From positions 50,850 through 114,849 of the forward strand of contig CANHPL010000004.1 in NCBI GenBank assembly GCA_947462685.1: a DNA stretch of 64,000 nt. Direction: 5' to 3'. The notes under the pieces were generated by a model that was given only the letters and a program-made list of their open reading frames with translations, had not been told where the DNA came from and searched no databases. This DNA is from Burkholderiaceae bacterium. Lineage in GTDB: Bacteria > Pseudomonadota > Gammaproteobacteria > Burkholderiales > Burkholderiaceae. Positions 33,554-37,387 of the stretch are shown one piece after another (positions within the stretch are counted from its first letter, which is position 1; each line of letters begins with the position of its first letter). A program made the translations under genes and the position numbers.

Positions 33554-35335
33554 CTATTTTTTCCATTGATCCTTTAATCCCACTGCAAAATTAAATACAG
33601 GTCGGTCAGTTGTGTAATCAACACGATCAGCCACAAAATAGCCATGTCTTTCAAATTGAAAGCGTTGTTCTATAACGGCAAGTGCAAGACTGGGCTCAAC
33701 AAACGCACGTAAGATTTTTTTAGAATCAGGATTAAGAAGCGTTAAAAAATCTTTATCCCCACTCGCTGGATTTGGATCTGTAAAGAGTCGATCATACATA
33801 CGGATTTCCGCTTGAATAGCATGGCTCACGCTAACCCAATGAATATTTCCTTTGACTTTGTAATCTGCTGAGCCTGGAGTGCCGCTTTTACTATCCGGAA
33901 AATATTTGACTCGAACAGCGATTGGATTGCCATGTTCATCTGTATCAAAACCTGTGCATTCCACAACAAAGCCATAACGTAATCTCACTCGATTGCCGGG
34001 TTGACCATCTTTCGGTGGATAAAGCCTGAAGAAACCTTTCATGGGCTCCATCATAAAGTCATCTGATTCGATCCAAAGTTCTTTCGTGAGCGCAAATTCA
34101 CGACGCCCCCAGTCTTCATGATGGGGATGTTTTGGCGCAGAGCACCACTCAAGATCACCCTCAAAGTTTTCAATAATCAGTTTCAGAGGCGACAAAACTG
34201 CAGTGCCTCTTTCTACTTTAGGATCTAAATCATCTCTGAGGGATTGTTCTAAAACACTCATATCAATCCAACTATCTGCTTTAGAGACACCAATTCGTTC
34301 ACAAAAGAGTTGTAAAGCCTCTGGGGTGTAACCTCTCCGACGAAGGCCAACTATGGTTGGCATGCGAGGGTCATCCCAGTCGTCAACATAATTTTCTTGA
34401 ACAAGTTGCAGTAATTTACGCTTACTCGTTAATGTATAAGTTAAATTTAACCTAGCAAACTCATATTGATGGGGCAGAGGTGACTTGAGAGCACCTGCAG
34501 TTTCAAGTTCATGAAGAATCCATTCATACAAAGGACGATTATTCTCAAACTCCAAAGTACAAATAGAGTGCGTAATGTTTTCTAGCGCATCAGAAATGCA
34601 ATGTGTAAAGTCGTATAGAGGATAGATACACCAAGTGTTACCAGTTCGGTGATGATGCGCATGACGAATGCGATAAATGACTGGATCACGCATCACCAGG
34701 TTAGGGTGAGTCATATCAATCTTTAAGCGGAGAACATGTTCACCGTCAGCGAATTGATCAGCCCGCATACCTCTAAAGAGTTCTAAGTTTTCAGCAACAC
34801 TTCGATTTCTAAAGGGGCTTTCTTTACCGGTTTGTTGAAAGTTTCCTCGGTTGATTTGGATATCTTCAGCGCTTTGACTATCTACATAGGCTTTACCGGA
34901 AGATATTAATATTTCTGCAAATGAATAGAGGGTTTCGAAGTAATCGCTGGCATAAAACTGATAGGATTTTCCCTGATGATGCCAGTCAAATCCTAGCCAC
35001 GTAACAGCGTCCAAGATACTATCGACATATTCTGTTTCTTCTTTTGCTGGATTGGTATCATCAAAACGCATATGACATCTTGCACCACCCGGTAACTGCC
35101 CATAATCGAGGGCAAGACCAAAATTAAGGCATATGCTCTTCGCATGACCAATGTGCAGGTAGCCATTAGGCTCCGGTGGAAACCTAGTAATGACAGAAGG
35201 TAGGCGATTACCACTGCTATCTAAACGATTAGCATAAATGCCTTTGGCACCATCATGATCAATAATCTGCCGCAAAAAGTTAGAAACCTCGGTGTTTGCC
35301 GAGGTTTCTAAGGAGTTTTTTATTTCTTTAGACAT
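33554..35335 (-). CDS. glnS: Glutaminyl-tRNA synthetase
   Basis: GlnS is a class I synthetase. The HIGH-type motif lies in PPEPNGYLHIGHAKS near residue 57, and the KMSKS-like site in TLTSKRKLLQLV. VGLRRRGYTPEALQLFCERIG is characteristic of the GlnS branch. The C-terminal anticodon-binding beta barrels are present, and the length is 593 residues. I use the ATG at 35335; a GTG two codons upstream is the ORF-track start. Codons 9-18 form a terminator-like hairpin. The start cannot move past it, because the following NFLRQIID aligns with the N-terminus of known GlnS. Confidence 0.96.
   Translation of the reverse strand: MSKEIKNSLETSANTEVSNFLRQIIDHDGAKGIYANRLDSSGNRLPSVITRFPPEPNGYLHIGHAKSICLNFGLALDYGQLPGGARCHMRFDDTNPAKEETEYVDSILDAVTWLGFDWHHQGKSYQFYASDYFETLYSFAEILISSGKAYVDSQSAEDIQINRGNFQQTGKESPFRNRSVAENLELFRGMRADQFADGEHVLRLKIDMTHPNLVMRDPVIYRIRHAHHHRTGNTWCIYPLYDFTHCISDALENITHSICTLEFENNRPLYEWILHELETAGALKSPLPHQYEFARLNLTYTLTSKRKLLQLVQENYVDDWDDPRMPTIVGLRRRGYTPEALQLFCERIGVSKADSWIDMSVLEQSLRDDLDPKVERGTAVLSPLKLIIENFEGDLEWCSAPKHPHHEDWGRREFALTKELWIESDDFMMEPMKGFFRLYPPKDGQPGNRVRLRYGFVVECTGFDTDEHGNPIAVRVKYFPDSKSGTPGSADYKVKGNIHWVSVSHAIQAEIRMYDRLFTDPNPASGDKDFLTLLNPDSKKILRAFVEPSLALAVIEQRFQFERHGYFVADRVDYTTDRPVFNFAVGLKDQWKK
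35274..35310 (-). terminator. Terminator-like hairpin inside the 5' end of glnS
   Basis: The perfect 12-base arms TAGAAACCTCGG and CCGAGGTTTCTA enclose a six-base loop. On the minus strand the stem is followed by ACTTTTTG, giving the form of an intrinsic terminator. It lies within codons 9-18 of glnS, about 60 bases past the tctA stop. It could end tctBA transcripts or act as an attenuator for glnS. Confidence 0.6.
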
Positions 35336-35369
35336 AGACACATATTGTAATGTGCCTTGAAGAACACCA

Positions 35370-36872
35370 TCAATCTTCTACGAAAGCTTCTTCACGGGTC
35401 TTCTTAAATGCTGGAAGCATTACGATCACTACCAAGAATGCTGCAGCGGCTAAGAGCGATGCTGAAAGTGGACGAGTTAAAAATACGGTGTAATCGCCAC
35501 GAGATAACAAGAGTGCTCTACGGAAGTTTTCTTCCATCATAGGCCCTAATACAAAGCCTAGTAATAAAGGAGGAGCTTCACACTTAAACTTCATGAAGAG
35601 ATATCCAAGAATACCGAAACCAGCAGTCAAATAGATATCGAATACTGTGTTGTTTACAGAGTAAACACCAATACAACAGAAAACTAAGATGGCAGGATAT
35701 AGATGTCTATATGGGATTGTTAACAACTTAACCCAAACACCAATCATTGGTAAATTTAAAATAATCAACATAAAATTACCAATCCACATCGAGGCAATTA
35801 GACCCCAGAAGAGAGCTGGATTGCTAGTCATCACTTGCGGACCAGGTTGAATATTATGAATCGTCATCGCACCAACCATTAGCGCCATCACAGCGTTTGG
35901 TGGAATACCTAAAGTTAGTAGTGGAATGAAGGAAGTTTGAGCAGCAGCGTTATTCGCGCTTTCTGGAGCAGCAACACCCTCGATAGCGCCTTTGCCAAAC
36001 TCATGACCATATTTAGATACTTTTTTCTCCAAAGAGTAAGCTCCGAAAGCAGCAAGAGCGGCACCACCACCTGGCAGAATACCTAAAACAGACCCTAAAG
36101 TTGTACCACGTAAGATTGGCATGATCATACGTTTAAAGTCTGCCTTAGTGGGCCACAAATTAGTAACCTTGTCCAAGAATGTTTCCCGATTTTCTTTTTG
36201 CTCAAGGTTTGCCATAATCTCAGCAAAACCAAACACGCCCATCGCCACGGCAACGAATCCTAAACCATCGGTTAATTGAGGTACATCAAAAGAATATCGA
36301 GCAGTACCAGAGTTAACGTCGGTTCCAACAAGGCCTAATAAAAGACCAAGGACAATCATGGCAATCGCTTTGATTAATGATCCAGAAGCTAAAACCACAG
36401 CACCAATTAAGCCCAATACCATTAATGAAAAATATTCAGCAGGACCGAATTTGAAAGCCAACTCAGATAACGGAGCAGCAAATGCGGCCAAAACTAATGT
36501 AGCCACGCAGCCAGCGAAGAATGACCCCATACCAGCAGTAAATAAGGCCACACCTGCTCGACCATTTCTCGCCATCTTATAGCCGTCAATCGCGGTAACG
36601 ACAGAAGAGGACTCCCCTGGAATATTAATCAAAATAGCCGTGGTTGATCCACCATATTGTGCACCGTAGTAAATACCGGCAAGCATAATTAAAGCAGCAA
36701 TTGGGGGGAGAGCGTAGGTAGCTGGAAGCAACATCGCAATGGTTGCAATTGGTCCGAGTCCAGGTAAAACCCCAATAAGAGTTCCAAGAACACAGCCAAT
36801 AAAGCAATAGGCTAAGTTTTGTAGAGTAAAGGCTGTAGCAAAGCCTAGGGAGAGATTACTTAACAGATCCAT
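35370..36872 (-). CDS. tctA: Tripartite tricarboxylate transporter, large membrane subunit TctA
   Basis: TctA is the large membrane subunit of a TTT-family secondary transporter, 500 residues with about 11-12 membrane segments. The two related glycine-rich motifs are GVLPGLGPIATIAMLLP near residue 39 and GILPGGGAALAAFGAYS in the second half. The transporter normally works with a small membrane subunit (TctB, immediately upstream here) and a periplasmic binding protein. No TctC gene is in the window, so the substrate is open. Confidence 0.94.
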   Translation of the reverse strand: MDLLSNLSLGFATAFTLQNLAYCFIGCVLGTLIGVLPGLGPIATIAMLLPATYALPPIAALIMLAGIYYGAQYGGSTTAILINIPGESSSVVTAIDGYKMARNGRAGVALFTAGMGSFFAGCVATLVLAAFAAPLSELAFKFGPAEYFSLMVLGLIGAVVLASGSLIKAIAMIVLGLLLGLVGTDVNSGTARYSFDVPQLTDGLGFVAVAMGVFGFAEIMANLEQKENRETFLDKVTNLWPTKADFKRMIMPILRGTTLGSVLGILPGGGAALAAFGAYSLEKKVSKYGHEFGKGAIEGVAAPESANNAAAQTSFIPLLTLGIPPNAVMALMVGAMTIHNIQPGPQVMTSNPALFWGLIASMWIGNFMLIILNLPMIGVWVKLLTIPYRHLYPAILVFCCIGVYSVNNTVFDIYLTAGFGILGYLFMKFKCEAPPLLLGFVLGPMMEENFRRALLLSRGDYTVFLTRPLSASLLAAAAFLVVIVMLPAFKKTREEAFVED

Positions 36873-36919: not shown

Positions 36920-37387
36920 TTAGCCGACTAGGAATGGAGGCCATACTGGGAACTGAAGTTTGAGGCCCCATACGAATGCTCCATAGCAAATACCAATCAA
37001 AATGATAGAGCTCACTAGAGTTTGCTTCCAATTAAATTCATGACTTGCTAAAGCCGAGAAATAAACTAATATGATGATAGATAAAATCAGACCTAAATAT
37101 TGAAGAATCACGGCAAATAAAATAACAGCGCCAGTAATCCAAAGTACAGTCTTCCAATCCCATTTTCCAAGGTCATGCTCTTCACTGCTTGCAGCTAAAG
37201 ACTTTACTAAAACGATGAGACCAAGCAGTCCAAGAAGCACGCCCAACCAAAATGGAAAATAACCCGAACCCATTTTTGCTGCCGTACCCATTTGATAGCC
37301 TCGAGCAAGTATTGCGAAAAATGCTCCAAATGCAATAAACATTAAACCTGAGGCAAAGTCTTTCTTATCTTTTATTCTCAATTCCAA
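36920..37387 (-). CDS. tctB: Tripartite tricarboxylate transporter, small membrane subunit TctB
   Basis: This is a 155-residue membrane protein with four hydrophobic segments, matching the TctB/DUF1468 family. The first segment carries the usual FASGLMFIAFGAFFAILAR pattern, and a Gly-rich MGSGYFPFWLGVLLGLLG follows. It lies 47 bases before tctA on the same strand and is divergent from alaS, with a 147-base region that must hold both promoters. Confidence 0.9.
   Translation of the reverse strand: MELRIKDKKDFASGLMFIAFGAFFAILARGYQMGTAAKMGSGYFPFWLGVLLGLLGLIVLVKSLAASSEEHDLGKWDWKTVLWITGAVILFAVILQYLGLILSIIILVYFSALASHEFNWKQTLVSSIILIGICYGAFVWGLKLQFPVWPPFLVG

Follow-up and report, generated by a model that had tools for sequence, protein, structure and literature searches.

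A probable tctBA terminator lies within the first codons of glnS in some freshwater Polynucleobacter

The window (the whole analyzed stretch of 64,000 nt) comes from a genome of 2.6 Mb in 99 contigs, which is of the Polynucleobacter type, going by its named relatives. On the minus strand the genes tctB, tctA and glnS follow each other in this order (Table 1), and tctA ends at position 35370, that is, 34 nt ahead of the glnS ATG; the hairpin considered below is hence indeed close to the end of the tctBA genes, as a preliminary description of the locus had it. The essential gene glnS is present in 150 of the 151 genus genomes searched, and tctA adjoins it upstream on the same strand in every genus locus whose contig reaches far enough. 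In a longer variant of glnS, starting with GTG at 35341, the start codon would fall upstream of the expected transcription start. No tRNA genes and no Rfam matches (neither a T-box nor any other known RNA family) have been identified in the window, and no plasmid relatives have been found.

Table 1. Features of the tctBA-glnS junction, listed in minus-strand order
Feature	Coordinates	Strand	Remarks
tctB, first gene of the tctBA unit	36920..37387	(-)	Pfam TctB, E 4e-23
tctA	35370..36872	(-)	Pfam TctA, E 1e-162
Weak -35-like element TTGATG	35368..35373	(-)	overlaps the tctA stop codon; 9/12 matches, spacer 18
Second hairpin, AGGCACAT-TACAAT-ATGTGTCT	35336..35357	(-)	-10 element in the loop; ends directly before the ATG
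Putative -10 element TACAAT	35344..35349	(-)	ends 8 nt before the glnS ATG; promoter-like match
glnS, glutaminyl-tRNA synthetase	33554..35335	(-)	Pfam tRNA-synt_1c, E 3.6e-101; ATG start at 35335
5' arm of the terminator-like stem, TTAGAAACCTCGG	35299..35311	(-)	13 perfect pairs
Loop CAAACA, 6 nt	35293..35298	(-)	next to codon 13 (GCN)
3' arm of the terminator-like stem, CCGAGGTTTCTAA	35280..35292	(-)	codons GAG GTT TCT the same in 12/12 clade A rows
T-tract CTTTTTG	35273..35279	(-)	codons 20-21, Phe-Leu

From 35311 down to 35270 the minus strand reads TTAGAAACCTCGG-CAAACA-CCGAGGTTTCTAA and then CTTTTTGCGG, forming a stable hairpin with a short loop (-19.5 kcal/mol, 13 bp, 6 nt). The preliminary description, which had placed a perfect 12-base stem with a six-base loop within codons 9-18 of glnS, was correct about the perfect pairing, the loop and the location inside the 5' codons, but the stem is longer: it comprises 13 Watson-Crick pairs (35311-35299 with 35292-35280, minus strand) and, counting from the ATG at 35335, spans codons 9-19, with the T-tract in codons 20-21. 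No other terminator-like site in the window, or in the 16 kb scanned, is as strong; the terminator scans allow shorter stems, as in one group of relatives (clade B, see below) the stem runs into the T-tract. The arm sequence forms a hairpin at glnS and nowhere else in the genome, and a dispersed repeat was therefore rejected.

The tctA-glnS junction was read in 87 loci of the genus, and pattern searches covered all 186 genus genomes. Two types of in-gene hairpin are observed. In clade A, which includes the window, the stem is GAAACCTCGG/CCGAGGTTTC and the hairpin is found in all 11 loci, the same stem being present in locus L038; in clade B, the stem is TTCGAGACC/GGTCTCGAA, followed by TTTTTTG, again in 11 loci out of 11. 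The A-type and the B-type stem each occur in 14 of the 186 genomes (28 in total), always as a single site at glnS. None of the 11 clade A and none of the 11 clade B loci have an intergenic terminator between tctA and glnS. Of the 65 remaining loci (group C), 64 carry such a terminator, whose typical form is GCCCGC...GCGGGC with T's after it, and none of the 65 has an in-gene glnS hairpin. The two arrangements do not co-occur in any genus locus read: the hairpin stands where a transcription unit has ended, and another terminator takes its place where it is absent. The spacer between tctA and glnS is 33-35 nt in clade A, 15 nt in clade B, and 59-140 nt (about 84 nt) in group C. The sole group C junction without a recognizable intergenic terminator, L138 (genome G011), lacks the in-gene one as well.

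In the GlnS tree, constructed with the hairpin codons left out, A and B together are recovered as a single clade (96/90), and so are A, B and C taken individually. The in-gene terminator-like element has thus probably arisen once and then diverged, judging from the tree, and since the switch between the intergenic and in-gene positions is a single event, the alternation amounts to one independent contrast. The 5' arms of A and B may nevertheless have separate origins, as the two leaders are equally long and homology of the arms would need both a deletion in the loop and an insertion upstream. Outside the genus, the in-gene hairpin is absent from all 71 glnS loci, the single match being located upstream of the coding start.

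The hairpin cannot be moved out of the gene by a later start codon. The segment NFLRQIID, encoded straight after it, is found in nearly all relatives, so that by homology the glnS start precedes the hairpin, as had been argued from the outset. The sole later start-like codon is TTG at codon 21; an internal start here, with GAGG of the stem as the Shine-Dalgarno sequence, was rejected, as this codon is TTA, CTA or CTG in 7 of the 12 clade A rows.

Compared with dinucleotide shuffles, the fold has z = -4.1, and none of 200 shuffles fold as well (values for the plus-strand fold, where G-U pairs differ slightly). Synonymous recoding, which keeps the protein and draws codons from glnS usage, is stricter than shuffling. 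Here, 17 of 5000 recodings of the window glnS fold as well overall, hence some 5' codons are recoded into hairpins fairly easily, and one could suppose that the amino acids merely permit a palindrome. However, an equally strong hairpin with a T-tract is reached by just 1 of 5000 recodings (2 of 2000 in each of the relatives L009 and L019 in the same test), wobble bases involved in pairs are frozen (see below), and the hairpin is kept in 28 genomes. Chance or protein constraint is therefore extremely improbable as an explanation; the hairpin does not simply follow from the protein sequence.

Codon conservation in relatives points in the same direction. In clade A, an invariant degenerate amino acid occupies 324 columns of the gene, and 18 of these show a single codon throughout the 12 rows; among the 8 eligible codons of the stem and tract, 6 do so (P 3e-7). 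For clade B, the figure for the whole gene is 40 of 401, and that for the stem and tract is 10 of 10 (P 3e-11). Codon 13 (GCN), whose wobble position is at the loop, occurs in clade A as GCA, GCG, GCT and GCC. The Phe codon of the tract is TTT in 23 of 23 rows of A and B versus 39 of 71 rows of group C (Fisher p 2e-5, an optimistic value, the rows being related). Between A and B, two stem pairs are changed on both sides, one from A-U to C-G (its 3' side going from TCT to TCG), and the other from A-U to G-C (GTT to GTC, both encoding valine). The full leader alignment is unusable for covariation, as it places the 5' arm of A 9 nt out of register with that of B, and pairs were counted on loop-trimmed stems; the resulting covariation is modest, with 16 of 500 shuffles scoring as high. 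Still, according to these alignments, the arms of A and B have changed in step, be they homologous base for base or otherwise. Hence the comparison of synonymous sites in relatives, suggested in the preliminary description as a way to look for compensatory changes, has yielded them, and the frozen paired wobbles together with the two doubly changed pairs argue that the structure of the glnS hairpin RNA is under selection.

A perfect palindrome close to a promoter, with both arms changing together, could also be a DNA site bound by a regulatory protein. Clades A and B have different arm sequences and a different spacing, though, and the T-tract is kept on one strand only, which makes protein binding at this palindrome extremely improbable as well. 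A terminator on the opposite strand was rejected, as the corresponding T-run of the window, GGAGTTTTTT, is interrupted both in L005-L007 and in clade B.

The quality of the predicted terminator differs between the clades. Clade B has the canonical form, with the energy of -13 kcal/mol and six T's directly after the stem. Clade A stems are at -16 to -21 kcal/mol, and a gap of 1-3 nt (C or AAC) precedes five T's. The tract scores are 0.6-2.2 in clade A, 4.2-4.3 in clade B, and 2.7-4.7 for the intergenic terminators of group C. Given the gap and the low scores, the clade A hairpins, including that of the window, may terminate weakly, and termination appears more secure for clade B. The imperfect tract and the very stable stem of clade A, located 9-11 nt from a possible pause site, would also fit a hairpin kept for mRNA stability, polymerase pausing or control of 5' translation without termination; a leaderless mRNA (see below) could be protected by structure at its 5' end. 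Against this, TTT encodes the tract Phe in all A and B rows while being mixed in C, clade B shows a textbook stem with T6, and the hairpin exactly alternates with an ordinary intergenic terminator; we consider a role without termination rather improbable.

The position of the hairpin relative to the neighboring reading frames would suit termination. The stem starts 58-61 nt (A) or 45-46 nt (B) after the tctA stop codon, and 24-27 nt (A) or 30-31 nt (B) after the glnS ATG. In an E. coli reporter, a terminator is clear of the last ribosome and fully efficient at a distance of about 27-30 nt from the stop codon upstream of it, and in one placed 48 bp past a stop codon and 30 bp past an AUG, translation lowered the efficiency by only about 10% (PMC4824070). 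By analogy with this precedent, the hairpin should stop tctBA transcription, and it should likewise cut glnS transcripts. RNA polymerase arriving from tctBA would be released approximately 58 nt (A) or 46 nt (B) past the tctA stop, far enough from the last tctA ribosome for the hairpin to fold. With a probability of roughly 0.7, we interpret the hairpin with its T-tract as the intrinsic terminator of the tctBA operon, situated inside the first 21 codons of glnS. The alternation of the in-gene and intergenic positions, the paired changes and the frozen codons lend good support to the initial proposal, in which tctBA transcription stops at the hairpin within the next gene.

The other initial proposal was an attenuator, with the hairpin kept open by ribosomes on the first glnS codons. 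TACAAT is observed 6-8 nt before the glnS ATG in all 117 genus loci with a readable start (some of which carry an earlier in-frame ATG). Among glnS loci, 2.6% reach an anti-Shine-Dalgarno energy of -4 or better, compared to 37-38% of other genes. Since the promoter element is so close to the ATG and a Shine-Dalgarno sequence is almost never present, the glnS mRNA is probably leaderless throughout the genus, to judge from these upstream sequences. The glnS promoter would thus yield an mRNA with no leader or almost none, onto which a ribosome could load once the 5' end emerges. Ribosomes are able to block intrinsic terminators (PMC5021804; PMC10135430). Some glnS transcripts would then pass, either with a ribosome already on the first codons or due to a leaky terminator, and the remaining ones would be lost, resulting in a constant attenuation of glnS.

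It could thus be supposed that the hairpin is mainly a glnS attenuator, with termination set by the loading of the first ribosome and the output following the translation capacity. A terminator at this place must also act on glnS transcripts, and the 5' codons of an apparently leaderless gene without a Shine-Dalgarno sequence are where it would sense initiation. However, group C has the same gene and promoter with no in-gene hairpin, and its intergenic terminator, being upstream of the glnS promoter, cannot act on the glnS mRNA. Gln codons before the hairpin are absent from the window and from clade B (one is present in L008), the leader folds contain the same hairpin with no evident antiterminator alternative of comparable strength, and early terminators in E. 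coli respond weakly to translation (PMC4824070). Attenuation as the main function is accordingly unlikely, though less so than a role without termination.

A second hairpin, with the -10 element in its loop, is located directly upstream of the glnS ATG. In the window it has the energy of -9.6 kcal/mol (z -4.0). Clade A members have a stem of 8-9 bp with -9.6 to -12.4 kcal/mol, formed by different paired bases in L009 and L010. In clade B (L017, L022 and others), a weaker hairpin closes around the glnS ATG, GGGT...ACCC, and its version in L022, AGGCAT...ATGCCT, has changed bases with the pairing kept. The second hairpin is present in full only in RNA entering from tctA, as RNA starting at the glnS promoter is without its 5' arm. 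It would therefore keep the read-through RNA untranslated, and hence terminable. One can tentatively suggest that the terminator sorts transcripts by origin, the untranslated read-through from tctA being terminated, and RNA from the glnS promoter, translated from its AUG, passing; we regard such sorting as doubtful, if somewhat less so than a main role in attenuation. Alternatively, the second palindrome of clade A could be an operator.

Strong in-gene sites of this kind are few in 400-kb samples of three genomes, which served as the background and were screened with a crude gene finder over the opening 100 nt of each gene. The clade A genome shows glnS and two weak sites; that of clade B has glnS, ntrB and ccoG, together with a weak site and another that is probably a mis-called start; in the group C genome, there is one weak site. 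The ccoG site of clade B (L218:15259-16719, minus strand), CCCCGCTCAGTGAGTGGGG-TTTTTG, is near codon 29, directly after the upstream gene. It lies within the codons of the conserved PRSVSG motif, and the same codons are used in all seven clade B loci read; the site is absent from the readable group C loci, which use other codons, two of them showing other hairpins nearby. In ntrB (glnL; L211:17793-18923, minus strand, and L221-L250), a terminator hairpin overlaps the 5' codons in clade B and group C, and in every locus of B and C that was read this terminator is 45-52 nt past the glnA stop. In clade B the ntrB start must precede this terminator, and in group C it may do so; ntrB is probably a further in-gene terminator-like site. 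In genome G023 (C1:406313-407412), ntrB matches as two separate pieces, the larger of which is interrupted by two in-frame stops; the gene is possibly broken, or the assembly contains an error.

The glnS hairpin shares with bacterial intrinsic (Rho-independent) terminators the GC-containing stem, the short loop, the T-tract and the location after the last gene of an operon. Unlike them, it is within the coding sequence of the next gene, past the promoter and the start codon of the latter, and in clade A a gap of 1-3 nt separates the stem from the tract, clade B being canonical. The geometry of plasmid W48 (48 bp past the stop codon, 30 bp past the AUG; PMC4824070) is nearly that of the glnS site, but those constructs are engineered, while the glnS site is natural, conserved and protein-coding. 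Inverted repeats in E. coli are enriched about 25-60 bp after start codons, with no assigned function (PMC6060812), and many transcripts of this species have 3' ends inside ORFs (PMC7815308). The glnS hairpin has the same position relative to the start codon as these repeats, but in contrast to a statistical excess, the comparison with relatives points to a particular role, that of the terminator of the upstream operon. As in ribosome-controlled attenuators (the pyrBI, trp and his leaders), the terminator hairpin is in translated 5' codons; in contrast to these, glnS has no separate stop-ended leader peptide, no run of regulatory codons and no evident antiterminator. Among open-licence papers, no literature on the glnS site has been found. 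The kind of element is thus already known, and what is new is its placement, its conservation and the swap with an intergenic terminator.

Predictions of in-gene terminators are easily dismissed, and gene finders ignore RNA signals in 5' codons. In the case of glnS, an essential gene likely hosts the terminator of an operon, and relatives with the terminator in the spacer provide a clean natural control. The site offers a testable explanation for part of the E. coli excess of inverted repeats 25-60 bp after starts (PMC6060812), and a direct way to test the competition of leaderless translation with transcription at a terminator. If the transcripts are indeed sorted by origin, compact genomes could generally use such a layout to retain a terminator where intergenic space is lacking. 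The glnS hairpin is, on the comparative sequence evidence, kept by evolution beyond what the protein sequence alone explains, and in some freshwater Polynucleobacter the stop signal of tctBA is probably written into the first codons of glnS.
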